Origin: Flammeovirga kamogawensis
GTDB taxonomy: Bacteria > Bacteroidota > Bacteroidia > Cytophagales > Flammeovirgaceae
Direction of reading: 5' to 3'
DNA length: 64,000 bases
NCBI RefSeq assembly: GCF_018736065.1
Contig: NZ_CP076129.1
Coordinates: 868,001 to 932,000, forward strand
Numbering within the stretch: position 1 is the first letter of the stretch; every line of letters starts with the position of its first letter. The position numbers and the translations under genes are program-made. Below are positions 202-18,122 of this stretch, in pieces. The notes under the pieces were generated by a model. That model was not told the DNA's origin, made no database searches, and was given only the letters and a program-made list of their open reading frames with translations.

Positions 202-338
202 AAAAAATCTATGTTGCTGTTTAATACTACTACAATATTAGCAATTGTATAAAAGTACATAGAGGATAAATTCGTCGATTAGTAGCACGAAACTGACAAA
301 TTGGTCAGAATGGGGGGATTTATGGAGAAGTAAATCTT

Positions 339-512
339 TTAAAAGTTCTTTTTCTTGAAAACAAAAAACACATAAAACGACTGCAATGCAATGTATATAT
401 AACTTAATGCTAGTAAATATTTATTCTCGAATATCTGAAATAAATCAAGAAATATAATTACTATACAGACAATACTAAGTAGTATAATAAGTACTATTAT
501 AAGTGGTTTCAT
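339..512 (-). CDS. Small two-helix membrane protein (57 aa)
   Basis: An ATG at 512 opens 57 codons ending in TAA at 339. The product has a strongly hydrophobic N-terminal helix (about residues 3-24), a short polar turn with acidic and asparagine residues (about 25-31), a second aromatic-rich hydrophobic helix (about 32-52) and a basic C-terminal tail (KKKNF). It lies 49 bases downstream of the TolC-like gene on the same strand and would be the last gene of the RiPP gene train. Small double-helix proteins at this place in bacteriocin operons are often immunity or efflux accessory proteins, but I recognise no family. The evidence is an open frame with a membrane-protein pattern in AT-rich DNA, so it may be spurious. 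Confidence 0.4.
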   Translation of the reverse strand: MKPLIIVLIILLSIVCIVIIFLDLFQIFENKYLLALSYIYIALQSFYVFFVFKKKNF

Positions 513-561
513 AAGTTTGCTCTTTTAATTTACAAGTTGACTTTTTAAAATAGGTAATTTT

Positions 562-1893
562 TTACTTGATATCTAATAAACTCCCAGAGATTCTAAGCAA
601 AGTAATTTGGGATTGAATTAAACTTAGCTGTGAATTAAATAAATTTAATGAAGAATTAAGGTAACTATTTTGAACTTGTCTAAATTCAAATGTTGTTATC
701 GTTCCTTGCTCTAATTGTTCTTTACTTAACAATAAATTTTTATCTGCTGAAGCTAAACTTTTTTTACTTAACTCTTCTTTCTTTATCTCATTATGATAAG
801 CTAAAAATGCTTTTGTAAATTCATTTTTCAGATAAGTTTCTATTTTTTTTCTTTCTATGAAAGCTTTTTCTCTTTGTAAAATAGCAGATTGAATTTGTCT
901 ATTATTTTTTCCGCCATTATATATAGGCAAGGATAATGTAACTCCTATATTTGGTCCATACCCTAAACCTCTATTCGTTTCTTGTTTAAAACCACCTTCT
1001 AACTGAGGCATATCAGCTGTATACCAATTTGTGTTTCCAGAATATCCAAAATCAGCTGTTAACAAAGGTGCTTTTAAATTCTTCTTTTGTCTAATTGTAT
1101 TTTCCTGAATATATTCAACAATTTTTTGCCTGTTTAAAGACGTATTATTTTCTAAAGCAGTAGAATATAATTGTTCAAAATTAAAATTTTTAGGGGTTAT
1201 ATTCAATGAGTCTAACAAATCATACTGCATATCAATATTTTCAACACCCATAATATAGTTTAAATCTCTTTGTGAATTTTCCCAAATTAATAATTGATCT
1301 ATATAGTTTGTAGAATCAGTATAAAAGGTTGTTTCATCTCTTGCTAATTCAAAGCTACTTCCAGAGCCTACTTTATTTTGTAAACGTGAATTTTCTAATT
1401 TATCCTTAGATAGAGATAAAATACGATTTAAAACTTTTAGTTTCTCTTTCTCATATTGAACTATATAGTATGCTTGAATAACAAGTTCAATTTGTTCTTC
1501 CATCTGATATGTTAATTTCCAACTTGCCTGTTTCTCTAACATATTCAATTGTTCTTTCTTCAAAGAAACATTAAAGCCGTTAAATAATACCCATTGTAAA
1601 TTTAAACCTGCATTTAATGTGTTATTATTACTTTTTCCTTCTAAAGCAAAAGGAGATGCTGGATCTGTATATTGAAACTGTGCAGAATTACCGATTTGCA
1701 ATTGAGCTTGAGGGTACCTCCCTGCATTACCCCAAGTATTTAATTGAGATGCATCCTCGACATTCAAACGTTCAATGTTTATATCAAAATTACTTTTTAA
1801 AGCTTTTTGAACCGCATCATTTAAAGAAAGATTTTGAGCTTGTAATTTTAGGATTGAAAGAGTAATAAATATAGTGGTATAAAAATATTTCAT
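562..1893 (-). CDS. TolC-like outer-membrane efflux channel
   Basis: This 443-residue protein has a signal peptide (about 1-20, cleaved after LQA) and the two-fold repeat of long amphipathic helices typical of outer membrane efflux proteins (OEP family), with the N-terminal LSLNDAVQKALKSNFDI motif and its second-half counterpart around residues 330-400. Length matches the family. It would form the trimeric outer-membrane duct that docks on the HlyD/MacA-type adaptor encoded just upstream. The gene starts 4 bases after the stop of the ABC ATPase gene and is co-transcribed with it. With the upstream permease, adaptor and ATPase it makes a complete MacAB-TolC-type tripartite pump dedicated to this cluster, so the channel probably carries the cluster's peptide out of the cell. 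Substrate is inferred from context only. Confidence 0.88.
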   Translation of the reverse strand: MKYFYTTIFITLSILKLQAQNLSLNDAVQKALKSNFDINIERLNVEDASQLNTWGNAGRYPQAQLQIGNSAQFQYTDPASPFALEGKSNNNTLNAGLNLQWVLFNGFNVSLKKEQLNMLEKQASWKLTYQMEEQIELVIQAYYIVQYEKEKLKVLNRILSLSKDKLENSRLQNKVGSGSSFELARDETTFYTDSTNYIDQLLIWENSQRDLNYIMGVENIDMQYDLLDSLNITPKNFNFEQLYSTALENNTSLNRQKIVEYIQENTIRQKKNLKAPLLTADFGYSGNTNWYTADMPQLEGGFKQETNRGLGYGPNIGVTLSLPIYNGGKNNRQIQSAILQREKAFIERKKIETYLKNEFTKAFLAYHNEIKKEELSKKSLASADKNLLLSKEQLEQGTITTFEFRQVQNSYLNSSLNLFNSQLSLIQSQITLLRISGSLLDIK

Positions 1894-1897
1894 TTTA

Positions 1898-2560
1898 TTA
1901 TATTAAAATATGACCATCTGCTAAGTGAATTATTTTATCAGCATACCCCGCTATTGTTTTATCATGTGTGATCATTAAAATAGTTTTACCACTAGTATTA
2001 ATTCCCTTTAAAAGATTCATAATTTCGTGAGATGTTTTAGAATCCAAGGCTCCTGTTGGTTCATCCGCAAATATAATTGGAGGGTTTGTAACTAAAGCTC
2101 TAGCAATTGCCACTCTCTGTTTTTGACCTCCTGATAATTCATTTGGTAATGAATCTGCTTTTTCTAATAGACCTACTTTTTGTAAAACATCTTTTGCTTT
2201 TAGCGTTCTTTCCTTGCTTTTTACTTTTTGATAAAATAATGCTAATTCGATATTTTTAAGAACGGTTTTATGGGGTAATAAATGAAATGATTGAAACACA
2301 AACCCCATTAATTCATTTCTCAGTTTTGCTTTTTCTGTTTCGTTTAAATCCATACATTCTAAACCATTTAATGATAAATAGCCTGAGTCTAAGTTATCTA
2401 ATAAGCCAATGATATTTAAAAGAGTTGATTTTCCAGAACCAGAAGAACCCATAATAGCAACAAATTCAGATCGACCTACTTTAAGTGAAATATTTTTTAA
2501 CACTTCATTCTTAATATCATTAGTTTGATAAGACTTATAAACACCATCTAGAATAATCAT
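1898..2560 (-). CDS. MacB/LolD-type ABC transporter ATPase
   Basis: A 220-residue stand-alone nucleotide-binding domain. Walker A is GSSGSGKST, the Q-loop region is VFQSFHLLPHKTV, the signature is LSGGQKQRVAIARA, Walker B is IIFADEPTGALDS and the H-loop is MITHD. The PTGALDS form and the length are typical of the LolD/MacB group that powers FtsX-type permeases. The start ATG overlaps the adaptor stop codon by four bases (ATGA), pointing to translational coupling. It should pair with the FtsX-like permease at 3630-4871, which has no ATPase domain of its own. Function in export of the cluster product is inferred from gene order. Confidence 0.93.
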   Translation of the reverse strand: MIILDGVYKSYQTNDIKNEVLKNISLKVGRSEFVAIMGSSGSGKSTLLNIIGLLDNLDSGYLSLNGLECMDLNETEKAKLRNELMGFVFQSFHLLPHKTVLKNIELALFYQKVKSKERTLKAKDVLQKVGLLEKADSLPNELSGGQKQRVAIARALVTNPPIIFADEPTGALDSKTSHEIMNLLKGINTSGKTILMITHDKTIAGYADKIIHLADGHILI

Positions 2561-3624
2561 AATCTTAATAATGACGTTTCAGTTAATCCATTCTTTATTT
2601 CTATTTCTATTCCATTAGATACTCCTACTTCAACATATCTTTTTTCTTTTTCCCCTTCTATGTTTAAGTATACAAAAGTTTGATCTTTTTCATCGAAGAA
2701 TAACATTTCTTCCTTAATTGCTAAAACCGAATCAGTTTCTTCAATTAAGATATTCGCAATAGCAGAATACCCAGATCTAATAACAAGTTTTTGATTTTGT
2801 TCATATTGGATTAAAGCTTCGAATTCAAATTTAGAAATACCATTTATTAATTTACCTTTTGGTGATATATAAGTTAAAATGGCATCAAATACTTGGTTTC
2901 CAGTAGCACCTATAAAAATTGGAAAATGCATTCCTTCTTTTAGATATTGAATATCATTTTCTGAAATTAACCCTTTAAATAACATTTTATTCATATCTGC
3001 TACAGTAGCTATAGTACTTCCTTCATTGAACGTATTTGTTTCAATTACATAACTTCCCTCCTTAAATGGAATATCTAACACTACTCCAGAAATTGTAGAA
3101 TACACATGGTTTGAAACTTGCTTTTCACCATCAATATGTCCCTTCTTAATTAATTGTATTTTCCTTTTGATTGAATAAAGCTCTTGTCTATATTTTTTTT
3201 CCTCATTTTCAATTTTTTGAAAAGTACTTTCTGATATAGCTCCAGCTTGAAATAACTTCTTATTTCTTTCTAAATCTGCTTTGGCTAGATTATAATTATC
3301 TTTAACAAGTCTCATTCTATTTTCTGCATCTTCCAATGATAGTGGATCTATAATAACTTTTAGAGTTGCCACTAAATCTCCTACCTTTACATGATGACCA
3401 GGACGTATATATATTTTTTCTATTACACCCGAAATTTGTGGTTTAAGGTGTATTTCTTTCATCGGTTCAATATATCCAGAAAGTTTTCTTTCATGTTTAA
3501 TAATTGAATAATAAGGATGAATGCCTTTATTTTTCAACCTATCTTCTTTCTGATTTTTTTTAAATGCAAAAGCAGATAATACCCCAATAAATACAATTAA
3601 AAAAATTATTGCTTTACTTTTCAT
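2557..3624 (-). CDS. HlyD/MacA-type periplasmic adaptor of the efflux pump
   Basis: 355 residues with an N-terminal membrane anchor (about 5-21), a biotinyl-lipoyl-like half motif (SGYIEPMKEIHLKPQISGVI, then IRPGHHVKVGDLVATL), a coiled-coil hairpin around residues 105-165 rich in Lys and Glu, the second lipoyl half (STISGVVLDIPFKEGSYV) and a beta-barrel region to the end. This is the membrane fusion protein layout. It bridges the inner-membrane permease and the TolC-like channel. It starts 5 bases after the permease stop and overlaps the ATPase start by 4 bases, so all four pump genes form one transcriptional unit. The C-terminal membrane-proximal domain is short compared with E. coli MacA. 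Confidence 0.9.
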   Translation of the reverse strand: MKSKAIIFLIVFIGVLSAFAFKKNQKEDRLKNKGIHPYYSIIKHERKLSGYIEPMKEIHLKPQISGVIEKIYIRPGHHVKVGDLVATLKVIIDPLSLEDAENRMRLVKDNYNLAKADLERNKKLFQAGAISESTFQKIENEEKKYRQELYSIKRKIQLIKKGHIDGEKQVSNHVYSTISGVVLDIPFKEGSYVIETNTFNEGSTIATVADMNKMLFKGLISENDIQYLKEGMHFPIFIGATGNQVFDAILTYISPKGKLINGISKFEFEALIQYEQNQKLVIRSGYSAIANILIEETDSVLAIKEEMLFFDEKDQTFVYLNIEGEKEKRYVEVGVSNGIEIEIKNGLTETSLLRL

Positions 3625-3629
3625 ACTAA

Positions 3630-4871
3630 TTAATTTTTTTCATTTAATGCATTCACTACTGTTAAATCCATAGCCTTTTTTGCAGGAATAAATCCAGCAA
3701 TAACACCTGAAATAAGTAACAATATAAAAGCTAAAAATATAATTAATGGGTTTACTTCTAACCCTTCTATAATCTTACTTTCAGTAGAATGAAAAATGAA
3801 ATAATTTAAAATTTCAATTATAATAACCCCTAACAATATCCCAATTACACCAGAAAAAAGTGTAAGTAAAGTGGATTCTGTCACAATCATTATCAACAAT
3901 TCTCTTGGTGATGCTCCCAATGCTTTTCGTATTCCTAATTCCTTTGTTCGTTCTTTGATAGCTAATACCATCATATTACAAATACTAATCATTCCACTTA
4001 ATAGTAATGATATTCCTACTCCCCATAAAAAAAAGTTAAGGTATTTAAAAAGGTCATCAAAAGATTTTTTTTGTTCTTTAGCTTCTAGTAAGAAGAGAGC
4101 ATTGGTATCTTTTTCATCAAACCTTAAAGTCTTAGAAAAATGAGGTTTTAATTCTTTATCAACAAAATCACTTTCAACAGCACTTGATAATGAAATACCA
4201 AATGAAAAAAATGCTTCTTTTTTTTCAAAAATACTTTGAAAAGTTTCTAAAGGAATAAAGATATTTCTTGTTTCATTTTGAGAAAATAAATTATCATTAT
4301 CCAATTCACCTATAATTACAAAAGGTACATTGTCTATATAGATTTCTTTTCCTATTCCTTTTTCATTTTTGAATAACGATTCTTGAGAATACCCTCCAAC
4401 AATGCAAACATTTCGTTTTTGTGTTTCATCTAACGGATTGAAATACCTACCTCTTTTTAATGGTAGGTTTTTAAGATCAAAGAAATCATTGTTTACACCT
4501 TTCAAATTACATTGTATATGCTTATTGAGATATGATATTTTTGTAAATCCGTTTTTATTTACTTCTAAAGCAAGTTGTTCTATTTCATTGTACTTTAATT
4601 GAAGTGATGTTAAATATGCATCTGTAAAAGTGATATTTTTACCTTCCGGTTCTCCATTATAAACCATCGAAGTTTGTCCGCCATATACCCAAACAGAATT
4701 CTTAGAATAACCTGAAAAGAGTTTTTGGATACCTTTGTATAACCCTTCTCCACCGCCTAAAAGTAATATTAATATCAACAACCCCCAGGACACGCCTAAA
4801 CCAGTTGTTACATTACGTACTTTATGTGAAGAAAGGTTTTCTAAAGGTTCTTGTAAGAATGATATTAGCAT
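3630..4871 (-). CDS. MacB-type FtsX-fold ABC permease (ATPase in trans)
   Basis: 413 residues. A first membrane helix at about 23-42 is followed by a large periplasmic MacB_PCD-like domain (about 45-275) and three C-terminal helices (about 280-305, 330-360, 375-400) enclosing the FtsX signature KERTKELGIRKALGASPREL. This is the four-helix mechanotransmission topology of MacB. Unlike E. coli MacB it lacks a fused ATPase, which is supplied by the gene at 1898-2560. The N-terminus (LISFLQEPLENLSSHKVRNV) is the usual start of Bacteroidota members. It follows a 324-base gap, so it may have its own promoter. It probably helps move the cluster product across the outer membrane together with MacA and TolC homologues. 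Confidence 0.88.
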   Translation of the reverse strand: MLISFLQEPLENLSSHKVRNVTTGLGVSWGLLILILLLGGGEGLYKGIQKLFSGYSKNSVWVYGGQTSMVYNGEPEGKNITFTDAYLTSLQLKYNEIEQLALEVNKNGFTKISYLNKHIQCNLKGVNNDFFDLKNLPLKRGRYFNPLDETQKRNVCIVGGYSQESLFKNEKGIGKEIYIDNVPFVIIGELDNDNLFSQNETRNIFIPLETFQSIFEKKEAFFSFGISLSSAVESDFVDKELKPHFSKTLRFDEKDTNALFLLEAKEQKKSFDDLFKYLNFFLWGVGISLLLSGMISICNMMVLAIKERTKELGIRKALGASPRELLIMIVTESTLLTLFSGVIGILLGVIIIEILNYFIFHSTESKIIEGLEVNPLIIFLAFILLLISGVIAGFIPAKKAMDLTVVNALNEKN

Positions 4872-4873
4872 TT

Positions 4874-4960
4874 TTAAACTAAAAAAAAGATTAAATAAAT
4901 AGTAACTCCTCTTTTAGAAAAAAGAAAACATACAATTAACTTCAGTAAATTCTTTATCAT
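4874..4960 (-). CDS. Possible 28-aa hydrophobic leader peptide before the MacB-type permease
   Basis: ATG at 4960 opens 28 codons ending in TAA two bases before the ATG of the permease at 4871. The peptide is MIKNLLKLIVCFLFSKRG followed by a hydrophobic tail. The two-base gap would permit translational coupling. It starts 20 bases after motif copy A. The frame is short enough to occur by chance in this AT-rich DNA, so it is reported only because of its spacing. Confidence 0.2.
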   Translation of the reverse strand: MIKNLLKLIVCFLFSKRGVTIYLIFFLV

Positions 4961-4979
4961 TACTATTTTTTTCTAAAAC

Positions 4980-5014
4980 TTTTCAAGTTCAGACTCTCTT
5001 TCGATCTTGCCTAA
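4980..5014 (-). repeat. Cluster repeat copy A (most degenerate)
   Basis: On the minus strand this copy reads about TTAGGCAAGATCGAAAG and ends ACTTGAAAAG. It shares the ACTTGAAAA end and the AGGC...AAG start with copies B and C. An ATG follows 20 bases after the end of the motif. Confidence 0.35.
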
Positions 5015-5035
5015 TAAAAAATATTTGTAGATATA

Positions 5036-5052
5036 TCAACTTCTAAAGTTGA
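5036..5052 (-). terminator. Weak terminator hairpin after the ABC-2 permease
   Basis: A perfect 7-bp stem (TCAACTT / AAGTTGA) with a 3-base loop. On the minus strand it is followed by an AT-rich stretch with TTTTTT about 20 bases on. It lies about 145 bases beyond the permease stop at 5196, so it may separate that operon from the pump genes. Confidence 0.3.
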
Positions 5053-5080
5053 ATTATGTTTCATTTTTTATTAAAGTTAA

Positions 5081-5120
5081 TTTTCAAGTATCTAACTTAT
5101 TAAAAGCTTACTTACGCCTA
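5081..5120 (-). repeat. Cluster repeat copy B
   Basis: The minus strand reads TAGGCGTAAGT, then AAGCTTTTAATAAGTTAGA and ends TACTTGAAAA. It aligns with copy C before the precursor over most of its length with a few gaps. An ATG follows exactly 17 bases after the end, as for the precursor, but opens only a 17-codon frame. Confidence 0.45.
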
Positions 5121-5195
5121 CTATTTTTACAAATACAACTTATTAACCATATAACTGTTTTTTAAAACTAAAATCCACTAAACAATAGTTTTTAA

Positions 5196-6473
5196 CTATT
5201 TAGAAAGTAATTTATATTTTCCTTTTTTATACATAGTTTTTGATATGGTTAAGATTAATCCTCCAATTAAAACTATAATAACAACTAACAAATATAGAGA
5301 AGTTGTTTTTGTTAAATAATAGATTAAAAATGTGCTTATTATTAAAAAAAGAGAAGCAACTTTGGAAGTTGTACCATTTAACTGAAATACTCTTTTGATA
5401 GATAATGGCATTGTAATACTCCAAAAAAAACTACTAGAATATGCTAGTATTAAAGAGAATAAATAAAAGCTACTTATTTTAACCAAGTTAATTTTGAAAA
5501 ATAAAATTGCTAATAAAGTTAATGATAAATCTATAAATAATGGGAAAATAAGAAGTCTAGAACCAATTTGAATAATATGATTAAATTGACCATTTGATAA
5601 GTACGATCTAAACAATAGGTCTTTAAAAAACATTAAAAAGTTATTATGGAGATAATTAAATATAAAAATAGGTGAAAGTATTACCCATAATAACGCTTCA
5701 CTATCGCCAAAATATTTCCCTGTTTTTCTATACAAAACAATATTAATAGTGATTAGTAAACTTTTCATAAAAAACGCAACTAATATAGTATTTAATCTTG
5801 TTTTATTTTTTATTAAAATTGTAATAAAAAATGGAAAATGATAATTATTATTTTGGACAACAAAAGAATAATTTTCTGTTATAGATTCCTTGTAATAACC
5901 ATCTAGAAATGAAAGTAATATTAAACACCAATAAAAATTATCTTTCAAAAAGAAGATAAGAAATACTATAATTATTGTTAGTAGGTAACTTAATAAGTTA
6001 TTTTTAAAATCAATTAAATACTGAATATTTCGAAATATGAATATTACATTCACTATAAGAATAAAGCTTTTTAAGATATATTCATTTTCTGCACCTAAAA
6101 GCCAGATACACATATAAAAAAGAGTTATTAGGAGGATTAGAGGCGTGAAAAAATAGACAACTAAAGAATATAAATATTTCACAAAAATAGATATTGGATA
6201 ATAAGAAGGGAATTCTTTTTTTAATGATGAATAGTTTGGAAAAACTTTAAAAAAAATAAAAAAAACTACTATTAATGTGTTAACAAAAATATTGAATTCA
6301 TTTAAACTAATAAATTCAGTATTTCCATTAATTATTAATTTTGATAAAAGGCTATACAAACCTCCGTATATTAGAGTCGTAAATATTGCTATTATATTAA
6401 TTAATACTATGCCCACATCTTTTAAATGATGAGTCAATAACTTCAATCTTATACTAATCAATGTCTTAATCAT
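5196..6473 (-). CDS. ABC-2-type permease, probable self-immunity pump subunit
   Basis: About 425 residues, nearly all hydrophobic, with roughly ten to twelve membrane helices separated by short loops rich in Lys, Asn and Phe. I place the start at the ATG at 6473, not the TTG six bases upstream, because this ATG overlaps the ATPase stop codon as ATGA. The partner ATPase is the gene at 6470-7222. Small ABC pumps of this BcrAB/LanFE-like layout beside a bacteriocin precursor usually expel the peptide from the producer's membrane; that role is inferred from position. I do not recognise a closer family. Its codon use is very AT-rich, even against neighbours. Confidence 0.75.
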   Translation of the reverse strand: MIKTLISIRLKLLTHHLKDVGIVLINIIAIFTTLIYGGLYSLLSKLIINGNTEFISLNEFNIFVNTLIVVFFIFFKVFPNYSSLKKEFPSYYPISIFVKYLYSLVVYFFTPLILLITLFYMCIWLLGAENEYILKSFILIVNVIFIFRNIQYLIDFKNNLLSYLLTIIIVFLIFFLKDNFYWCLILLSFLDGYYKESITENYSFVVQNNNYHFPFFITILIKNKTRLNTILVAFFMKSLLITINIVLYRKTGKYFGDSEALLWVILSPIFIFNYLHNNFLMFFKDLLFRSYLSNGQFNHIIQIGSRLLIFPLFIDLSLTLLAILFFKINLVKISSFYLFSLILAYSSSFFWSITMPLSIKRVFQLNGTTSKVASLFLIISTFLIYYLTKTTSLYLLVVIIVLIGGLILTISKTMYKKGKYKLLSK

Positions 6474-7222
6474 AACCAATCCAAGTTTAATTGAGTTTCT
6501 TCTACATCAATATTTAACCATTTTAATAATTCATCATAAAGTGATTGATTTGTGATAAATTGTCTATATTCTCCTGAAAATGTAATCTTACTATCAATTA
6601 ATATTCCTATATCTGTACTTATTTTTTCAATATAATTGATATTGTGAGAAGAGATAAATATGCAACGTTCATTATTGATATATTTCTTTAAAAATAAGCA
6701 CAGCTTATTGGCTGAAACTAAATCTAACCCAGTAAAAGGTTCATCTAATATCAATAAATCAGGTGTATGAATGACAGCTGCACAAAAAGCTATTTTCTTT
6801 TTCATACCAGTGGAATAAGTTAAGATTGGTTGATTTAATGATGACTTGTTTTTGTCTTCAAAAAATAAGTCTAACAAATCTTGTATTCTCTTATCAATAA
6901 CTTCTTTAGGTACTTTATAAATCTGAGCTATATATTTTAGAAATGTGTAGGCATCTACTTCTTCTATTAAATTTAATTGATCTTGAAGTACACCTATATT
7001 TCTTTTCTCTATAGTTGTTAAATTCGTAACAGGTTTACCATTAATAGTAATAAGACCTTCATCTATTGTAATTAAATCCAATATCGCATTTAATAAAGTT
7101 GACTTTCCTTCACCATTTTTGCCTATCAAAGTATATATAGACCCAGGATTTATATGAATATCTAATATATCTAGTACCTTATGTGAATTATATACTTTCT
7201 TTAAATTCTTTATTTTTATCAT
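6470..7222 (-). CDS. ABC transporter ATPase, probable self-immunity pump subunit
   Basis: A 250-residue nucleotide-binding domain with Walker A GKNGEGKST, Q-loop GVLQDQLNLIEEVDAY, a slightly divergent signature LTYSTGMKKKIAFCAA in place of LSGGQ, Walker B LLILDEPFTGLD and the H-loop SSHNI. The STGM-type signature and the C-terminal extension are typical of the CcmA/BcrA/NatA group that works with ABC-2 permeases. It is the first gene after the precursor on the same strand, 65 bases on and separated by a strong hairpin, and overlaps its permease by 4 bases. Together they resemble LanFE-type immunity transporters. Family is clear; the immunity role is inference. Confidence 0.88.
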   Translation of the reverse strand: MIKIKNLKKVYNSHKVLDILDIHINPGSIYTLIGKNGEGKSTLLNAILDLITIDEGLITINGKPVTNLTTIEKRNIGVLQDQLNLIEEVDAYTFLKYIAQIYKVPKEVIDKRIQDLLDLFFEDKNKSSLNQPILTYSTGMKKKIAFCAAVIHTPDLLILDEPFTGLDLVSANKLCLFLKKYINNERCIFISSHNINYIEKISTDIGILIDSKITFSGEYRQFITNQSLYDELLKWLNIDVEETQLNLDWL

Positions 7223-7250
7223 AAAAACAATTAATTATTATAAAAAATTA

Positions 7251-7279
7251 TAAACCCTACTTATTTAAAGTAGGGTTTA
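7251..7279 (-). terminator. Terminator/attenuator directly after the precursor gene
   Basis: A perfect 12-bp inverted repeat (TAAACCCTACTT, 7251-7262, and AAGTAGGGTTTA, 7268-7279) with a 5-base loop, nine bases after the precursor stop. On the minus strand it is followed by a T-rich run (TAATTTTTTATAAT). Intrinsic terminators between a bacteriocin precursor and its downstream genes commonly let the short precursor mRNA accumulate with partial read-through into immunity and export genes. Confidence 0.75.
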
Positions 7280-7287
7280 ATTTCCTA

Positions 7288-7476
7288 TTAACTATATGCA
7301 CAGTAAACTGAAGCTATTCCCATACCAATAGCAGTTGGACCTGCTATTAATGCTCCTACAGGACCAGCAAAAGCTGCTACACCAGCAACAAGCCCGGCTG
7401 TTGCAATTACCTTATTGGTTGTTGAAGAACAACCACCTTCAATAATTACCATTTCATTTAAATTAAGGTTTTCCAT
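7288..7476 (-). CDS. Double-glycine-leader RiPP/bacteriocin precursor peptide
   Basis: 62 residues. The first 15 form a short leader (MENLNLNEMVIIEGG) ending in the Gly-Gly that C39 peptidases cleave; the L4, L6, M9 and I11/I12 spacing is of the double-glycine type. The predicted 47-residue core begins with Cys16 and a Ser/Thr cluster (CSSTTNK), continues as an unbroken Gly/Ala/Val/Ile segment with several GxxxG-like spacings and two Gly-Pro pairs, and ends YCAYS, with the only other Cys at 59. So one disulfide could tie both ends of a hydrophobic hairpin. It lies between its probable exporter (7557-9674) and ABC-2 pump. Ser/Thr residues 17-20 are candidate sites for the cluster glycosyltransferase. 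I know no named family with this core. The assignment as precursor is strong; activity and modifications are inferred. Confidence 0.85.
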   Translation of the reverse strand: MENLNLNEMVIIEGGCSSTTNKVIATAGLVAGVAAFAGPVGALIAGPTAIGMGIASVYCAYS

Positions 7477-7492
7477 TATTTATAAAAGTTTG

Positions 7493-7537
7493 TTTTCAAG
7501 TGTCTACTCTTTTCAAGCTTTTCGACTTCCGCTTATT
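7493..7537 (-). repeat. Cluster repeat copy C, just upstream of the precursor gene
   Basis: The minus strand reads TAAGCGGAAGTCGAAAAG, then CTTGAAAAGAGTAGACACTTGAAAA split over the next bases, ending 17 bases before the precursor ATG. Two related copies lie at 5081-5120 and 4980-5014. It may be a regulator binding site or 5'-UTR element. A weak promoter -7-like element (TATTATTG on the minus strand) lies just upstream at 7547-7554. Confidence 0.4.
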
Positions 7538-7556
7538 ATTTGTGCACAATAATATC

Positions 7557-9674
7557 TTATACCAATGCTAAAGTATGCATTGTATTATTTTCTATTTTAT
7601 ATGTCTTATCAACATAGTGAAGTAATTCATCATGGTGAGAAACTAGGATAGTGATTCTATTTTTAGCTTCCTTTTTTAGAATCTCTAAAACTTCTTTCTC
7701 AATAGAAGAGTCCATTGCAGATGTAAATTCATCAAGTAATAACACTTTTGGTTTTTTAAATAAAGCTCTTGCTAATGCTACTAATTGCTTCTGTCCACCA
7801 GATAAGTTTATCCCATTTTCACCAACAATAGTTAAATAATCTTGAGGGAGTTTCATGATTAGTTGATGTAACCCAATTTTTTGACAAAAATTTACTGCTG
7901 CTTCATAATTCTCAGGTTCAGAACTTAGTGTAATATTTTCAATAACAGTACCTGGAAATAACATTATGTTTTGGTCTACTATGCCAATATATTGCCTCCA
8001 ATTCTTATTAGAAATTAAATCTAAAGAAGTTTCATTTACCACAATTTCACCACTTGATATTGTTTGAAATTTTTGAAGTATATTAAATAAAGTACTTTTT
8101 CCTGAACCACTATCTCCTGTCACAGCAATCATTTCTCCGTTCTTTACTTTGAAATTCAGCTTTGACAATAATTCTTTTTTACCTGGAAATCTAAAACTAA
8201 CCTCTTTGAAATCAATTACATCAATTTCATCTATTTTTAAAGTTAAATTTTGTTTTTCCTCTTCAACCTTTACAAATTCATACATTCTATCAAACGCTAC
8301 CTTTGCTTCATTCCATTCTATATTTGATAAAGAAACTCTGATAACAGAAGGTGTAATATTCATAGCTACTGTAAGAATTGCCATCATTTCTCCAGTTGTC
8401 AAACCTTCTTTAAATACTATAGTAGCCCCCAAACCAAGTAGTGCGACAGAAAATACAGTATTCCAACTTTCCATAAAACTTCCTATTTTTAACTGAAGTT
8501 TAGAAAAATCAAAAATTCTAGATTGATACTCGTCGTATATTTGTTTTGTCTGAACTGTGAAAAATGCCTCTTTTTGGTTCACTTTTACCGTTTTTATTCC
8601 TTGAACAGTACTAATATATTGACTTTCCGTATGAGCATACAATTCCATGACTTCTTGCTGTGCATCCATTACCTTTTTATTATATTTAAAAGCAACAAAA
8701 ACATATACCGGAATAAATACTACAACAGTTAATCCTATCCAAATATTAAAAAAGCATAGATAAACTAAGGATATAAATACAAGTAAGAAGTCAATTACCA
8801 CACTTGTCATAAAATACGTAACGACTTGTTGTAAACGTTGCGAATCATTTAATCTTGCTACCATTTCTCCTGTTTTTCTTTGTTGAAAAAAGGAGAATGG
8901 CAAATACATTAATTTACTAAAAAAAGAGTGAATTACTTTTGAGTTAAATTTCTTTGAATGTTTTGATAATAGAACACCTCTAACATATGTAAACAAAACC
9001 CTTACTGAAAGTAATATGAATAACAGCCCTATTGATAATATTAATTTTGTTAGATCATTAGAAGGGAGTATATAATCAATTAATCTTTGTGAAAAGATAC
9101 TCATTGACAGTCCTAATACTGCGATGATTACTCCTAAAAAACCACCTGAAATTAAGTAATTCTTGTCTTCATCAATAATATCTAAAAACCATTTCTTCCT
9201 ATTCTCCTTCTTATTTTTATTTAGTTGAAATTTATCTGTCTTTTCAAGCACTAAAATTGTTTTAGATATCCAAACTTCACTTAATTCTTCTTCTGTATAA
9301 ACTTTAATACCACGAGCTGGGTCACCTATAATGAAAGTATTATTTTCAGAATTATAACCATAAAAAACAATATAATGTTGTAGATGTTGGTTTAGAATAA
9401 CATGTAAAATAGCAGGACTATCATGTTCTTTTAAACTTTCAATCGTCGCCTTACAACCATTGGCATTAAAACCTAAATTATTTGCCGCCTCATAAAGACC
9501 AAGTAAGGTTGTTCCCGTTACTGTCGTTCCACTTATGGCTCTCAGTTCTTCTAAAGGAATAGAAACTCCATCATAATAATTTATAATACTAAGTAAACAG
9601 GCTATTCCACAGTCAGATTCGCCTTGTTGTGTTACCTGATACTTTTCAAACAATTTATATTTTTCCTTCATCAT
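7557..9674 (-). CDS. C39-peptidase bacteriocin ABC exporter (PCAT)
   Basis: 705 residues from the ATG at 9674; a TTG six bases further upstream is less likely. The N-terminal C39 peptidase has QQGESDCGIAC with catalytic Cys22, His100 in LQHYIVFYGY and Asp118 in IIGDPARG. Six membrane helices span about 165-450 (ABC transporter type 1). The ATPase has Walker A GDSGSGKST, signature LSGGQKQLVALARA, Walker B LLLDEFTSAMDS and H-loop VSHHD. All catalytic residues are present, so it should remove the double-glycine leader and export the core. It overlaps the thioredoxin-like gene by 20 bases and precedes the precursor by 80. Related to SunT, ComA and LagD. Very confident. Confidence 0.96.
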   Translation of the reverse strand: MMKEKYKLFEKYQVTQQGESDCGIACLLSIINYYDGVSIPLEELRAISGTTVTGTTLLGLYEAANNLGFNANGCKATIESLKEHDSPAILHVILNQHLQHYIVFYGYNSENNTFIIGDPARGIKVYTEEELSEVWISKTILVLEKTDKFQLNKNKKENRKKWFLDIIDEDKNYLISGGFLGVIIAVLGLSMSIFSQRLIDYILPSNDLTKLILSIGLLFILLSVRVLFTYVRGVLLSKHSKKFNSKVIHSFFSKLMYLPFSFFQQRKTGEMVARLNDSQRLQQVVTYFMTSVVIDFLLVFISLVYLCFFNIWIGLTVVVFIPVYVFVAFKYNKKVMDAQQEVMELYAHTESQYISTVQGIKTVKVNQKEAFFTVQTKQIYDEYQSRIFDFSKLQLKIGSFMESWNTVFSVALLGLGATIVFKEGLTTGEMMAILTVAMNITPSVIRVSLSNIEWNEAKVAFDRMYEFVKVEEEKQNLTLKIDEIDVIDFKEVSFRFPGKKELLSKLNFKVKNGEMIAVTGDSGSGKSTLFNILQKFQTISSGEIVVNETSLDLISNKNWRQYIGIVDQNIMLFPGTVIENITLSSEPENYEAAVNFCQKIGLHQLIMKLPQDYLTIVGENGINLSGGQKQLVALARALFKKPKVLLLDEFTSAMDSSIEKEVLEILKKEAKNRITILVSHHDELLHYVDKTYKIENNTMHTLALV

Positions 9675-10191
9675 CTTCAAAACTTTTTGTAATCATCGTG
9701 AATTTTGACAACCCTTTAATATTTTTTATGAGCTTCCCTTCTTTATTGTATAAAAATGAATTAGGTACTGAACTAGACCCAAAAATTTGAAAGAACATAT
9801 TTTCTCTTGCTCTTAAAAATTTAAAATTAAGATGATCCAATTCACTTTTTTCAATAAACTCCAAAACTACTTCAACAGGTTCTTCAGAGACCAACACAAC
9901 TTGAATCTTTTCTTTTTCTAATATTTGTTGATTCTTTTGAAATAGGAATATTTCATCAATACAGAAATGACATGTAGAATTAAAAAATGTAATTATCACT
10001 TTTTTATTGACATACATTTCAGAAGTAATTACTTCTGTTGTATCTAAATATGATTGAAAAGAAAAGTCAGGTAACTTTTTAATAGTATTTTCTACTTCTT
10101 CTTTTTGTTTTAATGTTTTGATTATGCTATAAGTCAAGAAAGAAATAACCCCTAAAAAAGAAACAATTATTATAAGTTTTTTATTTTTCAT
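9655..10191 (-). CDS. Membrane-anchored thioredoxin/TlpA-like thiol-disulfide protein
   Basis: 178 residues: a membrane anchor (about 5-24), then a thioredoxin fold with the redox motif STCHFCIDE (CHFC) and the cis-proline loop SSVPNSF. The TlpA/ResA type acts outside the cytoplasmic membrane. The precursor carries exactly two cysteines, one at each end of the core, so this enzyme could make or edit that disulfide after export. Sublancin-type glycocin clusters likewise pair a C39 exporter with thioredoxin-like Bdb proteins; that parallel is established, the function here is inferred. The gene overlaps the exporter start by 20 bases and starts one base after the upstream membrane-protein gene. 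Confidence 0.85.
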   Translation of the reverse strand: MKNKKLIIIVSFLGVISFLTYSIIKTLKQKEEVENTIKKLPDFSFQSYLDTTEVITSEMYVNKKVIITFFNSTCHFCIDEIFLFQKNQQILEKEKIQVVLVSEEPVEVVLEFIEKSELDHLNFKFLRARENMFFQIFGSSSVPNSFLYNKEGKLIKNIKGLSKFTMITKSFEDDEGKI

Positions 10192-10192
10192 A

Positions 10193-10840
10193 TTAACTAT
10201 ATTGGATCGATAAAAAAGTAATAAAAATAGCCCAAGTTAAAAGTCCACTGCCGTAACCATATAATACAATTTTATAAGCATTTTGATCTTCTTCCACCAA
10301 AAATTTTTTCGTGAAAAATGTCAAGGAAATAATAAAAAACAACTCAAACAGATTAACTAAATTTAGAGGGTAATTTACCCATTGCATCAGTTCTTCATGA
10401 TCCAAATAATACCATAATGTCCATGGTGTAAATGATACCATATCGGTAATAGTTGTAACATTTGTAATCGTTGAAAACCAAAACAATTGAAAAAAACTGG
10501 GAATTAGAAAGATATATTCAGCAATTATCACCACTCCCATTGTTTTACTAAAAGAGAGTGAAATATCAAATAAAATTGCTCCAATTATTAAGGCTAAAGT
10601 GATCAGTATAACTTTAATACCCAATATTATTGGTACTAATACATATGCAAACCACCAATACTCTAAATTCCATTCCAATAGTCCGTCAATTTGTTCAATT
10701 GTCAATTGTTCTCCATAAGTGGAATACCAAACATCTTCTGTGAAAAGAAACTCACTAGATATAAATTGAATGAGCCAAGACAGAAAAACGAGTAGTATAA
10801 AGGAAGTAAGTTTGTTCGATTTTAAGATTGAATTTATCAT
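10193..10840 (-). CDS. Polytopic membrane protein of the RiPP cluster, family not recognised
   Basis: 215 residues with about five membrane helices (roughly 12-30, 64-92, 98-120, 155-175, 190-212) and a loop rich in Trp, Tyr and acidic residues at 36-62. No enzyme motif is visible. The fold pattern resembles small Yip1-like or Bacteroidota membrane proteins found next to C39 exporters, but I cannot assign it. It lies 12 bases after the glycosyltransferase stop and one base before the thioredoxin-like gene, so it belongs to the operon. Possible roles are redox partner of the TlpA-like protein, immunity protein or export helper. Confidence 0.75.
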   Translation of the reverse strand: MINSILKSNKLTSFILLVFLSWLIQFISSEFLFTEDVWYSTYGEQLTIEQIDGLLEWNLEYWWFAYVLVPIILGIKVILITLALIIGAILFDISLSFSKTMGVVIIAEYIFLIPSFFQLFWFSTITNVTTITDMVSFTPWTLWYYLDHEELMQWVNYPLNLVNLFELFFIISLTFFTKKFLVEEDQNAYKIVLYGYGSGLLTWAIFITFLSIQYS

Positions 10841-10852
10841 TGTTTTATTAAT

Positions 10853-12208
10853 TCAATTTGATGGTATTAGCTTAGAAATTAAATCACCTACAGATGTATA
10901 TTTATTACTTTTACTAATATTCTTATTAAGGTTTTTCAAACTCAGTAAGAATGATTTATCACTGAGTAAAAAGTTAACTTTATTAATTATTTTTCTCTCA
11001 CTATCTGAATATGTACCTCTCATTCCTAATCCATGAAAAACTACTCTAGATGCATTTCCCACTTGATCTAATTCTTTACTCCCTGGGTAGATAAGCATTG
11101 GTGTTTTCGTTAAAATACATTCATTTATAGAATTCACACCACCATGACCTATCATAAGATCGATTCCCTTTTCTAATAAGTCTACCTGTGGTACACGTCT
11201 AAAAAAATAAATTGATTCGTTATCTATCATTTCCCTTAATTTTAATCTTTGATTTTCATCTTCAACACAAACTAAAAAAGTTACTTCCTTTATTTTTTTA
11301 AAAGCTTGAGTGAGTTTCTCTAAAAACTGCTCATGCCCATAATATCTCCATGCCATCGTACCAAAAGAACAAAAGACAAGTTTATTATTTGTTTTACAAT
11401 GCATTTCTATCACCCTATCAAACATATAATCATAAATGAGATTTTTTCTTTTCATTAATTGATTTGGAGCAACATAGAAGTGGTTTTCTTTTTTCTCATG
11501 AGGAAAATCAAATTCTAAAAAGGTAGTATTAATCTCTGGTACTGTATGATATCCAAGAAATTTATAGCGTTTCTTGTCTAAAATACTTTTATCTAGAGAA
11601 CTTCTATCTATATATTCCTTAATTGATTTCTCAAAAGAAGTCATTAATAAATTCATTCTTTTCTGTCTTATATTATGTAAGATCCAGCTACAACTAACCT
11701 TTACATTCGACCATTTATTATTAATTTTTGGAACTATAGAAGAAGATAAAGGTGGTTTATTCTTTGTTCTAATAGTAGAAACTGTAGTCTCCACTAAAGC
11801 TACTGGCATATTTTTTTCCAATAATGGTAATATATTGGCTTTATAAACAGAGTCTACTAAATAAAGGTTTGGATTTAAATCTTCAATTATTTTTGAAAAA
11901 AAATCTTTACTTAGTATTTCCTTGCCAACCTTTTTCATTGATTCACGCTCAATAGACAAAGTAGATAACAACTTTAGGTAATATCTATATTTATTTTTTT
12001 CAGCTTTTCGATTCACTGGTTTTTCTATAATATCATCCTTTTGATCTATTTCATAAAACTCAAAACCATTTTCAATAATTAAATTTTTAATATGTTCAGT
12101 TCCTATATAAATCAATTTATGCCCCATCTTTTGTAATTCTTCAGCGAATTTGAATGTTGCATTATGATGACTTTCTTGAGGAAAAATTCTTAGTGCAATA
12201 GTTAACAT
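10853..12208 (-). CDS. GT1 (UGT/MGT-type) glycosyltransferase of the RiPP cluster
   Basis: 451 residues with the GT-B fold. The N-terminal half begins ALRIFPQESHHNATFKFAEE, the acceptor-side motif of macrolide-type transferases, with the conserved early His. The C-terminal half carries CSFGTMA and the nucleotide-sugar motif: VPQVDLLEKGIDLMIGHGG, then NSINE, PMLIYPG, KELDQVGNASRV. This is the UDP-glycosyltransferase signature including HGG, E and DQ. No signal peptide, so it acts in the cytoplasm before export. GT1 enzymes glycosylate small hydrophobic acceptors; here the precursor peptide's Ser/Thr cluster is a plausible target, but a lipid or antibiotic acceptor cannot be excluded. It lies two bases after the LanC-like gene stop. 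Known glycocin enzymes (SunS) are GT2-like, so a GT1 would be unusual. Confidence 0.9.
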   Translation of the reverse strand: MLTIALRIFPQESHHNATFKFAEELQKMGHKLIYIGTEHIKNLIIENGFEFYEIDQKDDIIEKPVNRKAEKNKYRYYLKLLSTLSIERESMKKVGKEILSKDFFSKIIEDLNPNLYLVDSVYKANILPLLEKNMPVALVETTVSTIRTKNKPPLSSSIVPKINNKWSNVKVSCSWILHNIRQKRMNLLMTSFEKSIKEYIDRSSLDKSILDKKRYKFLGYHTVPEINTTFLEFDFPHEKKENHFYVAPNQLMKRKNLIYDYMFDRVIEMHCKTNNKLVFCSFGTMAWRYYGHEQFLEKLTQAFKKIKEVTFLVCVEDENQRLKLREMIDNESIYFFRRVPQVDLLEKGIDLMIGHGGVNSINECILTKTPMLIYPGSKELDQVGNASRVVFHGLGMRGTYSDSERKIINKVNFLLSDKSFLLSLKNLNKNISKSNKYTSVGDLISKLIPSN

Positions 12209-12210
12209 AA

Positions 12211-13998
12211 TTAGTTTATTTTTTCAATAAATCCATTCATGAAAAGTTCTTGAATTCTATTCTCAAGAGATTCTTTGTTCATTTTGTGAATAGAATTATT
12301 AGATTGTAACATCACCTCCAATAATTTTTGGTAACTTATTGAATTATTTCTTAATTCATTAAACACGACAAAATCTATTGATGACACTTCTATTCTTAAA
12401 ATACCATCTTCTGGATGAAGAAAAAGTATAAAAAATCTATTTTTTATAATGTCAAAAAAAGTAAACATATTACTTCTATTTTTTAGTATCTCATCATATT
12501 TTAATATATGATTTTGTTTACAATTTTTAATCTGTTTTGCTTTTTCATAAAGCCAATTCCCTATCCTGGATCTCAACTTAAACTTTATTTTCTCCTCAAT
12601 TAAACTAGATTGCAAAAATTGATTATCAATAAACTCTTGTTTAAAAAAAACATTAAATAAATCATAAAACAATTCTGTTTTTGGCTTATTTATTTTAAAA
12701 TTTAACGAAAAGTAATTTAACTGAAACTTTAAAATTACATCCCAAACATCAAGATCCAGAAATTCTTTTTGCTCTTTTCTTTTACATACGAAAGGTGTAA
12801 GTACTGATGACATATTTTTTTCTTTTAACTTTAAAAGAAGATACCCCTTACCTACCTTACCTTTTAAAAAAGATAAATCAGAAATATGTTCATTTAGATA
12901 ATGACTTGATTCTTTATCTGATTTCAATATAGCCTTAATTATCAATTCTAGATTATAATTAACATTCAACTCCCCAATACCGTGTAACGATAATATAAGT
13001 CCGCCTGTTTTATTTAATTCAATTTGTGGAAATCTATTTTTTTCTTGTATCAGATCGTTTACTAAAGCATTAAGTGTCTCAATAACTAATTTATATTCCT
13101 TACTATCCTTACTTCTAGAAAGTAAAAAACCAATATCTCCTGTATCCCAAAAAGGAGAATTAATTCCTTTCTTAAAAGAAAATTCATTTTTAGGTTTAAA
13201 TAGTTTATCTGTTTTGTATATGTTACCGAAGTAATAATCAAAATTCAATGTATTAATCCAACCTCTTTCTTCTGGAGCAAAATATGTATTTTCAAATGTA
13301 AAAGCTTCACTAATTATCTTTTTGTATAATTTATCTTCAATCACAAATTGCTTTTGAACTTCTAATAAAGTAAATACAATGCCTGAATTCCCTTTTAAAA
13401 AACCCATAACGGGAGCATAAGAATTAACATCCTCATCCCAAAAAACACCTTTTTTAGTAAATCTTGCCTTTCCTATAATTACATTTAGACATTCAAATAT
13501 TTCTTGTTTAAGATATTCTGACGTGTCGATATCATATAAATGTAATAAAGACAGTAGGTACCCTGCTAAACCTTCCTCTAAATTTACCTTTTTACAATCA
13601 AATTTATTAGTTTTCTTATATGTCAATTTACAAGCTTCATCAAGATATTGCTGTTCTGATAAAAGTTTGAAAGCTTCTAATAAAACATATATTAATCCTC
13701 CTATACCATTATAAAAACCTATCTTACAATCTTTCTTTTTATAATGGTGAATACACTCCTTTAACCCTTTATCAATTAATTCTTTAACTTCTTTTTTATC
13801 AATCGAATGTTTGTAATATGTAATCAGGAAAAGGATAATTCCTAAATTACCATTTAAGATTCCGAAGAGTGACTTTCTATCAAAAATATTTTTAGCATAA
13901 CACCTATAAATTGTTTCCCAATGAATAGATTGTTTATTCTTATTTATTTTCGATTCATGAAGAATAATTCTGAATAGTTGTTCAGTAAAATTACACAT
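12211..13998 (-). CDS. LanC-like (alpha/alpha)6 protein with lost zinc site and PqqD/RRE-like C-terminus
   Basis: 595 residues. The first 400 show the LanC repeats: FGILNGNLGI (45-54), FYNGIGGLIY (95-104), EEGLAGYLLS (141-150), MGFLKGNSGI (198-207), WDTGDIGFLL (284-293), LSLHGIGELN (336-345), FLKGKVGKGY (377-386). In lanthionine cyclases zinc is bound by WCYG and CHG; here these read W284-D285-T286-G287 and L338-H339-G340, so both Cys are replaced and only the His remains. A conventional cyclase is therefore unlikely, and no dehydratase is nearby. The last 75 residues (about 520-595) resemble a PqqD-like winged helix, the RiPP recognition element: a beta hairpin (LHPEDGILRIEV), then helices ending ENRIQELFMNGFIEKI. 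That domain call is tentative. First gene of the operon, so it may recognise and present the precursor. Confidence 0.8.
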   Translation of the reverse strand: MCNFTEQLFRIILHESKINKNKQSIHWETIYRCYAKNIFDRKSLFGILNGNLGIILFLITYYKHSIDKKEVKELIDKGLKECIHHYKKKDCKIGFYNGIGGLIYVLLEAFKLLSEQQYLDEACKLTYKKTNKFDCKKVNLEEGLAGYLLSLLHLYDIDTSEYLKQEIFECLNVIIGKARFTKKGVFWDEDVNSYAPVMGFLKGNSGIVFTLLEVQKQFVIEDKLYKKIISEAFTFENTYFAPEERGWINTLNFDYYFGNIYKTDKLFKPKNEFSFKKGINSPFWDTGDIGFLLSRSKDSKEYKLVIETLNALVNDLIQEKNRFPQIELNKTGGLILSLHGIGELNVNYNLELIIKAILKSDKESSHYLNEHISDLSFLKGKVGKGYLLLKLKEKNMSSVLTPFVCKRKEQKEFLDLDVWDVILKFQLNYFSLNFKINKPKTELFYDLFNVFFKQEFIDNQFLQSSLIEEKIKFKLRSRIGNWLYEKAKQIKNCKQNHILKYDEILKNRSNMFTFFDIIKNRFFILFLHPEDGILRIEVSSIDFVVFNELRNNSISYQKLLEVMLQSNNSIHKMNKESLENRIQELFMNGFIEKIN

Positions 13999-14361
13999 GT
14001 TTATAGTTTTTAGTTCTTTGTTATAGCTTCATAAATTTAAAGTAAAATTAATATAATCTACAAGTCGTAACACTTTAATAATCATCACTTAAAAAAAAAT
14101 GATAGAACATAGAAAAACATCTCGTATAAAATGTTATTAGAACTAACAACATCATTTAAAAAAAATATTTTAACAAAAAAAAACAACTATTTATTACCCT
14201 TGTTATCACTAAACTATCTTAGATATCACCTAAGAAATATAATTGAAAAGTTATAGAATGAAAATAATTTTAAAGACAATACTTTTTCAAATAAAAAACA
14301 CCCAACAACCCACAAATTTCTTCATGGTTTATTGGGTGGTTTTATCACTATAAATTGAGAA
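13999..14361. other. Gap: start region of the RiPP operon and end of the beta-helix gene
   Basis: 363 bases without a credible gene. It must contain the promoter of the minus-strand RiPP operon, but no clean Bacteroidota promoter pair is visible. Near 14299-14338 there is the terminator of the beta-helix gene. The rest is AT-rich with long A runs. Confidence 0.5.
14299..14338 (-). terminator. Terminator of the beta-helix T9SS gene
   Basis: CACCCAA (14299-14305) pairs with TTGGGTG (14332-14338), with further pairing of GGGTTG and TAAACC-type bases inside the loop. On the minus strand the stem is followed by TTTTTTATTT. It isolates the RiPP operon from the polysaccharide genes upstream. Confidence 0.65.
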
Positions 14362-17769: not shown

Positions 17770-18122
17770 AGCATTTCTTCTTTTTACAGTTTAAAATACA
17801 CTCTTGATAAGTAGTTCATAAAGTAGTTTTAGATTATCTGCTTTAAGATTCAAGAGTAGTAAAAAAGTGTTCTTCGTTAAATAATAACTTCAGAACTGTT
17901 AGTTAACTGATCACAATGTAGAAGGTGAATCAAAAAATTATGAGCACAATCACTGAAATTAAATATCACTTTCTTTACAAAAAATAGCGTATTTTATACA
18001 CTAATAATTATTAATCTTATTCTGCTAATCACTTTTAGAAAAGGGTATTAAATTCATTTATAGCTCTAAAAACATCATTTTAAATAGCTAAAATGCAAAC
18101 AAGCAAATTGAATTGTAGTATC
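17770..18122. other. Divergent promoter region between beta-helix and sulfatase genes
   Basis: 353 bases, AT-rich, between divergently transcribed genes, so it should hold both promoters and any shared regulator site. I see no convincing consensus promoter pair and no perfect long inverted repeat. A frame-open ATG at 18093 lies upstream of the sulfatase signal peptide and was not used as the start. Confidence 0.45.

Follow-up and report, generated by a model that had tools for sequence, protein, structure and literature searches.

A putative bacteroidetocin-type bacteriocin island with a coupled GT1 glycosyltransferase and LanC-like protein in Flammeovirga kamogawensis

RESULTS

A bacteroidetocin-type gene train with an added enzyme pair

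We analyzed a stretch of 64,000 nucleotides (here, the window) from the 6.97-Mb genome of the marine bacterium Flammeovirga kamogawensis (NZ_CP076129.1, positions 868,001 to 932,000) and found that positions 339-13998 hold a 13.7-kb minus-strand train of thirteen genes, one of them for a double-glycine (GG) precursor peptide. In transcription order the train encodes a LanC-like protein, a GT1 glycosyltransferase, a membrane protein that we call TM215, a TlpA-like protein, a C39 exporter, the precursor, an ABC-2-type ATPase, a putative permease, a MacB permease, a MacA-type adaptor, a MacB ATPase, a TolC-type channel and a 57-aa peptide. On balance, we think that this is probably a bacteroidetocin-type bacteriocin island to which a glycosylation module has been added. 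All genes that a first-pass annotation had named are there, on this strand and at the coordinates it gave, as open reading frames (ORFs) and family matches bear out; plus-strand ORFs across the train reach at most 115 aa and all overlap minus-strand genes. That annotation had also proposed a new class of peptide. The core is not a new class, since its gene content matches the published four-gene bacteroidetocin set (PMC6671954); what is new is the coupled LanC-like/GT1 pair. Nine Flammeovirga genomes were compared, and families were assigned with Pfam and NCBIfam profiles. The pair and the core are as follows (L and G numbers in the text are our handles for fetched loci and genomes).

12211..13998, minus strand: LanC-like pseudo-cyclase of 595 aa, ending in a winged-helix-like domain that may be an RRE; PF05147 LANC_like 5e-29, AlphaFold2 (AF2) model
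10853..12208, minus strand: GT1 (GT-B) glycosyltransferase, 451 aa, gene 2 nt beyond that of the LanC-like protein; UDPGT 1.2e-11, MGT 5e-18 (below cut-off), YjiC structures 5e-10
10193..10840, minus strand: TM215, 215-aa polytopic membrane protein; no family match, AF2 model all-helical
9655..10191, minus strand: TlpA/ResA-like thiol-disulfide protein, 178 aa, C74-H-F-C77; AhpC-TSA 9e-12, ResA structures 6e-5, hydrophobic N terminus by eye
7557..9680, minus strand: C39-peptidase ABC exporter (PCAT), 707 aa, TTG start as listed; Peptidase_C39 7.6e-30, ABC_membrane, ABC_tran
7288..7476, minus strand: precursor, 62 aa; 15-aa leader ending IIEGG and 47-aa core
7251..7279, minus strand: terminator-like hairpin directly 3′ of the precursor, 12-bp stem followed by a T-rich tail; hairpin scan

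The LanC-like protein lacks cyclase residues and is coupled to GT1

The LanC-like/GT1 pair occurs at five loci in three of the nine Flammeovirga genomes, once on a plasmid. At all five, the LanC-like gene ends 2 nt before the GT1 gene or overlaps it, and a gene for a GG-leader peptide accompanies the pair; the layout that would have told against the first-pass reading, these genes with no peptide gene, was not seen there. The LanC-like subfamily itself was found in three of the nine genomes only. A sixth match to the LanC-like protein is a fragment at the end of a contig of F. aprica (L011). When 84,980 species genomes, a set that may omit close relatives of the window genome, were put through a pattern-based scan with the subfamily alignment, F. 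aprica alone was found; a contig scan with the single window protein as the query gave no match.

The AF2 model of the LanC-like protein (pLDDT 84, pTM 0.89) finds its best Protein Data Bank folds with Foldseek in LicM2, LanCL2, MadC and NisC. Residue roles were assigned from NisC. Both zinc cysteines are replaced in 5/5 family members, as the first-pass annotation had stated for the window copy, and the active-site histidine is a lysine in all five. Of the three zinc ligands, only the two cysteines are firmly lost. At the position of the third, a histidine, the five members show N, N, N, D and a gap, but in the window copy an unaligned SLHG follows shortly after and may hold a remnant histidine. 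With both cysteines and the active-site histidine missing, we discarded an active cyclase as a candidate; the protein is very probably unable to cyclize. Compared with its F. pectinis counterpart it is 75% identical, the most diverged of the genes compared, and the ratio of nonsynonymous to synonymous divergence (dN/dS) of 0.235 indicates that the gene is maintained under purifying selection. Residues 504-594 are modeled as strands followed by three helices and a strand, a predicted topology that makes a C-terminal RiPP (ribosomally synthesized and posttranslationally modified peptide) recognition element (RRE) plausible. One of six such C-terminal tails matched DUF3658 at 9e-5, just below the cut-off.

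LanC-like proteins without both zinc cysteines are common, making up 32 of the 104 from fetched loci (some partly aligned; window copy excluded). We looked for a same-strand GT1, DUF6734 or PLOD-type gene no more than 8 kb away and found one for 7/32 proteins without both cysteines versus 4/72 with both (p 0.03). For loss of the active-site histidine, the comparison is 6/12 versus 5/92 (p 2e-4), or 3/9 when the four Flammeovirga proteins are counted once (p 0.02). These figures argue only weakly for a general rule that a LanC without zinc cysteines goes with a glycosyltransferase, and we keep the claim to Flammeovirga. Tandem LanC pairs were seen at L068, L074, L075, L135, L136, L145, L147 and L149, where one member keeps Cys, Cys and His and the other has lost them in part; LanB lies near the pairs in L068, L074 and L145.

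Precursors of three types accompany the LanC-like/GT1 pair at its five loci. The window, L012 and L015 have hydrophobic peptides with two Cys, the F. pectinis plasmid (L014/L217) has a more hydrophilic two-Cys peptide, and L013 has two 44-aa lanthipeptide-type precursors accompanied by LanB and a separate, zinc-bearing LanC. A helper not bound to one chemistry is the role for the pseudo-LanC that fits best.

GT1 relatives lie beside double-glycine peptides

The GT1 enzyme keeps the N-terminal S-H and the C-terminal HGG.NS..E....DQ motifs, invariant in 6/6 sequences; presumably the former holds the catalytic histidine and the latter is the donor motif. Its dN/dS against F. pectinis is 0.178. 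As the first-pass annotation had held, the glycosyltransferase is not of the SunS type (GT-A fold): the enzyme matches UDPGT and MGT models and YjiC structures. A search of 390 genomes of the order gave relatives (E<=1e-20) at 52 places, spread over 36 genomes. In a sample of 198 genomes from the whole phylum, 4 had a relative, the window genome included. A GG-leader peptide with Cys is encoded on the same strand within 6 kb at 36/52 places and on the opposite strand at 0/52, a lenient control, as ORFs overlapping longer genes had been removed. Five of the 36 leaders are doubtful (L057, L058, L059 twice, L100), leaving 31 that are convincing. L013 counts among the places without a peptide, yet its GG peptides were merely missed by the filter. 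At 28/52 places a same-strand C39 exporter is encoded no farther than 8 kb away, and exporter and GG peptide occur together at 24/52. GT1 also joins bacteroidetocin-type loci on its own, since at L060, L076, L083 and also L175 it stands with TM215, TlpA and C39 but no LanC-like gene.

Other genes near GT1 relatives were noted. A protein at L061:7784-9388, whose neighbors are GT1 and a GG peptide rich in Cys, fuses a C39-like domain to VKOR and a DsbA/DsbG-like thioredoxin; this again points to disulfides, and by eye a 540-aa protein at L063:7665-9287 resembles it. The GT1 relatives at L057, L058 and L059 have as neighbors, judged by eye, a small thiol protein, a secreted protein of ~400 aa and a short secreted peptide that contains Cys and begins M(R/K)SKLKK; L059 packs three GT1 genes into 12 kb. 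At L017:9618-11555 and L013:16496-17332, double-glycine or lanthipeptide loci include DUF6734 proteins in which DxD-like motifs (HVDGD, HIDYD) can be read by eye. The former carries a C39-like domain at the C terminus of the same chain, and the latter adjoins a protein of 336 aa that matches LANC_like weakly (E 0.008). Possibly, DUF6734 is a peptide glycosyltransferase of the GT-A type.

One leader occurs on unrelated cores

The 47-aa core of the precursor is hydrophobic and Gly/Ala-rich, with Cys1, Cys44 and GxxxG-like spacing; the precursor has no Pfam or NCBIfam match. F. pectinis carries it at 100% identity, together with a second precursor, upstream of the MacB permease gene, that has the identical 15-aa leader on an unrelated core. 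The DNA just upstream of the start codon is similar in both. Since one leader is found on two unrelated cores, machinery shared via that leader would be the simplest reading. In 24 hand-picked peptides that we tabulated, leaders are 13 to 18 aa long, mostly 15 (two were set by cutting at an internal Met), and 22 of the 24 have two Cys. The L015 precursor has a weak match to the class IIb bacteriocin cerein 7B (E 0.02, below cut-off). A hairpin scan of positions 1-14500 gave six terminator-like sites versus 2.8 expected, and the site at 7251..7279 has the longest stem.

The core genes resemble bacteroidetocin loci in content

According to PMC6671954, bacteroidetocin loci contain genes for a membrane protein of ~5 transmembrane (TM) segments, a thiol oxidoreductase, a C39 exporter and a GG-leader peptide with at least two Cys, and this four-gene core is sufficient for production. 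As described there, deleting the TM or oxidoreductase gene attenuates activity, neither gene conferred immunity in a sensitive strain, the leader is removed at GG, and reduced peptides migrate differently. By gene content, the window core is of this type. The first-pass annotation had given the precursor its own C39 exporter and thiol oxidoreductase, which the leader, the Peptidase_C39 match and the AhpC-TSA match with CHFC support. The exporter has the motifs HYIV, DPA, Walker A and LSGGQ, and its catalytic Cys was read by eye in QQGESDCG; CXXC is kept in 5/5 TlpA orthologs examined. The TM215 model (pLDDT 90) has no match in the Protein Data Bank at E<=0.001.

Of 390 genomes in the order, 105 encode a TM215 homolog. 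We fetched 20 further TM215 loci, of which L189 gave no ORF of at least 180 aa; among the other 19, on contigs some of which end early, TlpA is present at 18, TlpA and C39 at 16, and a GG peptide on the same strand at 11 (a doubtful one at L181) and on the opposite strand at none. A plain copy of the core lies in the same genome as the window (L019, G000:C3:98000-117000) and has the order TM215, 49-aa precursor, 266-aa ORF, TlpA, C39, with neither GT1 nor LanC. Apart from the extra 266-aa ORF, this is the published bacteroidetocin order. L019 also has an 869-aa outer-membrane-type protein, and by eye, the cluster on the F. pectinis plasmid is flanked by a counterpart of this protein and by one of the 266-aa ORF, the latter counterpart being annotated GLPGLI. 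The window order, TM, TlpA, C39, precursor, is unlike the published TM, bacteriocin, thiol oxidoreductase, ABC. Two Bacteroidales plasmid loci fetched as possible bacteroidetocin loci (L215, L216) have neither TM215 nor TlpA.

The gene train is an island

The 13.7-kb train is an island, as gene order indicates. F. pectinis has a near-identical train with the same flanking genes (L012), which differs by ~1.4 kb extra between the ABC-2 and MacB genes, containing the second precursor. G003, a third Flammeovirga, has orthologs of the right-hand neighbor and the left-hand sulfatase side by side, in that order and with nothing between (the sulfatase query was taken from L012, as the window's copy is cut by the window end). 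In a fourth (G005), the gene directly after the right-hand ortholog is a paralog of the right-hand neighbor. Genome searches found no LanC-like gene in either. The nucleotide ends of the island are too diverged for exact placement, and their comparison gave weak local similarity only. Synonymous divergence (dS) from L012 is 0.62 for the LanC-like gene, 0.21 for GT1 and 0.02-0.07 for ten other genes, and this step over 10853-13998 suggests recombination at the LanC/GT1 end. The genes that flank the island, at 14362-17769, at 18093-19655 and on the left of position 339, encode sulfatase-like proteins and a 1135-aa secreted protein (families assigned by eye); the genome has several paralogs of the latter.

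Export and putative immunity genes

The remaining genes of the island are as follows.

6470..7222, minus strand: ABC-2-type ATPase, 250 aa, putative self-protection exporter; ABC_tran 2e-25
5196..6479, minus strand: 427-aa hydrophobic protein, putative ABC-2 partner permease; no family match, gene overlaps the ATPase gene
3630..4871, minus strand: MacB-type permease (split MacB), 413 aa; MacB_PCD 2e-23, FtsX 3e-19
2557..3624, minus strand: MacA-type periplasmic adaptor, 355 aa; HlyD_D23 3e-13, TIGR01730 above cut-off
1898..2560, minus strand: MacB-type ATPase, 220 aa; ABC_tran 6e-34
562..1893, minus strand: TolC-type outer-membrane channel, 443 aa; OEP 4e-40
339..512, minus strand: 57-aa hydrophobic peptide, last ORF of the island; 98% identical in L012, no family above cut-off

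Genes for two export routes are thus present, as the first-pass annotation had it. Its ABC-2 pair stands in part: the ATPase matches ABC_tran, with drrA and lantibiotic-protection models below cut-off, but the 427-aa "permease," 96% identical in L012, has no Pfam or NCBIfam match. Pumps of the MacB type work on substrates in the periplasm, and a protein toxin leaves that compartment through MacAB-TolC (PMC5985334). Export in two steps, by C39 and then by MacAB-TolC, would therefore be a reasonable route across the outer membrane.

DISCUSSION

We propose the following course for the island. The 62-aa precursor would be made mainly from a short transcript ending at the hairpin 3′ of its gene. 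In the cytoplasm, the noncyclizing pseudo-LanC may hold it, perhaps via the leader, and present the core to the coupled GT1, which would add a sugar, most likely on Ser or Thr. A peptide with only two Cys, joined in one disulfide, is unlikely to carry an S-linked sugar, and Ser or Thr would be the likelier site. The C39 exporter is expected to cleave after Gly-Gly and move the core to the periplasm, helped by TM215. There, TlpA would join Cys1 and Cys44 by a disulfide and the MacAB-TolC pump would carry the finished peptide over the outer membrane, while the ABC-2-type pair may protect the producer.

A simpler explanation is that this is an ordinary bacteroidetocin-type bacteriocin with a disulfide only, while GT1 and the LanC-like protein act elsewhere, on the cell surface or a small molecule, for example in self-protection. 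We regard this as somewhat unlikely, though several observations speak for it or weigh against our main reading. The published four-gene core suffices without such enzymes, and 18 of the 19 fetched TM215 loci have no GT1. GT1 resembles macrolide-inactivating enzymes, the macrolide glycosyltransferase models matching only below their cut-offs. The closest GT1 relative outside the genus, at L044, has a LanC-like gene but neither a C39-peptidase exporter nor a GG peptide, and its neighbors resemble cysteine-synthase and ornithine-cyclodeaminase genes (translations read by eye). The peptide filter found no GG peptide at 16 of the 52 GT1 places, or 21 when doubtful leaders are dropped. Among LanC-like proteins without the Cys pair, 25/32 have no glycosyltransferase matched by our models nearby in fetched loci, so zinc loss alone does not predict one. 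Ser/Thr content is not visibly different between cores with and without GT1 (12 versus 12 hand-picked peptides); at least one Thr is present in all 12 cores of GT1 loci and likewise in the 12 others. TM215 is likened to the published TM protein by gene content and not by sequence. The RRE of the first-pass annotation agrees with predicted topology but is weaker than claimed, as none of the six LanC-like C-terminal tails matched PqqD at E<=10. Against a disulfide-only peptide stand the GG peptides beside GT1 relatives, with none on the opposite strand, and the coupling of GT1 to the LanC-like gene at all five Flammeovirga loci; at four of these, the exporter and a precursor with two Cys belong to the same uninterrupted series of genes on one strand. 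At L013 the pair directly adjoins class I lanthipeptide precursors.

The remaining explanations concern the LanC-like protein or the function of the peptide. If the protein were a sugar-active (alpha/alpha)-barrel enzyme, such as an epimerase that supplies or trims the sugar, it would not be a presenter. Foldseek indeed also lists GH76, GH88 and 2-epimerases, and an endoglucanase-like role was proposed in a survey for Bacteroidales LanC-like proteins without these residues (PMC10352776). However, LanC/LanM structures match far better (best E 3e-9 versus 2e-4 for the best glycosidase), the sequence matches are LANC_like/LanM, and we judge this idea to be quite improbable. We give still less credence to a pheromone or signaling system. 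C39 exporters also export pheromones, but the core is hydrophobic and Gly/Ala-rich with GxxxG-like spacing and two Cys, an ABC-2-type pair is present, no receptor or kinase family occurs among the 13 genes, and the cerein 7B match of the L015 precursor, though below cut-off, leans toward a bacteriocin. Least credible is a lanthipeptide or other thioether RiPP, with the LanC-like protein still cyclizing and a dehydratase elsewhere in the genome. The LANC_like domain, the LanC fold and the place of the pair beside LanB in L013 would suit it; the loss of both zinc Cys and of the active-site His in 5/5 and the separate LanC with a full zinc triad in L013 would not. The first-pass annotation had reported no dehydratase, radical SAM or YcaO. 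Indeed, among non-overlapping window ORFs of at least 200 aa, searched with a small set of hidden Markov models, there is no LanB-like match and no CxxxCxxC motif (the rest of the genome was not searched for a dehydratase), and Pfam found no YcaO in the 13 genes.

Our preferred reading, a bacteroidetocin-type island with an added glycosylation module, can be set beside known systems. To our knowledge, the glycocins known so far all come from Gram-positive bacteria, and NAI-112 and cacaoidin are examples of glycosylated lanthipeptides. Among the matches listed from open-licence literature, none reports bacteroidetocin-type genes together with a GT1 or a LanC-like protein. By gene content, bacteroidetocins (Coyne et al. 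2019, PMC6671954; target BamA, PMC8546649) share with the window a membrane protein, thiol oxidoreductase, C39 ABC exporter, a GG leader of 15-16 aa and a core of ~35-50 aa with at least two Cys. The window differs from bacteroidetocins A and B in having two Cys rather than four, a hydrophobic, class IIb-like core and a precursor gene after the exporter, and it adds GT1, the pseudo-LanC, the ABC-2-type pair and MacAB-TolC. Neither paper uses, in its main text, a word that starts with "glycosyl." The clusters of glycocins (sublancin, thurandacin, glycocin F, Thg; PMC12457901, PMC10373908) likewise bring a glycosyltransferase and a thioredoxin-like protein together with a GG precursor and a C39 exporter. 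Their enzymes SunS and ThuS have the GT-A fold (PMC10373908), whereas the window has a GT1 (GT-B) enzyme, one Cys pair, a Gram-negative host and a LanC-like partner. Bacteroidota class I lanthipeptide clusters (such as L013, L069 and L073) share the LanC-like fold and a C39 exporter; the window has no dehydratase, and neither the zinc Cys nor the catalytic His is present in its LanC-like protein. The LanC-like proteins of the Bacteroidales RiPP survey (PMC10352776) likewise have no C...CH motif and no LanB, but as described there they occur with radical SAM genes and carbohydrate-active enzymes, while the window protein is coupled to GT1 and accompanied by a C39 exporter.

The plain bacteroidetocin-type copy in the same genome (L019) allows a clean comparison, and MacAB-TolC in the train offers a testable answer to how the peptide crosses the outer membrane, a question left open in the bacteroidetocin paper (PMC6671954). 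More broadly, and tentatively, a gutted lanthionine-cyclase fold might have been reused as a peptide-presenting partner of a glycosyltransferase, in a module that moves between class II-like bacteriocins and a class I lanthipeptide, and the GT1 clade might mark a large, unrecognized group of GT1-glycosylated double-glycine peptides across the order; we see this as possible rather than probable. If true, the GT1 clade beside double-glycine Cys peptides in Bacteroidota would be a further enzyme class for peptide glycosylation, and its LanC-like partner would show a dead cyclase fold serving as a peptide-handling subunit.

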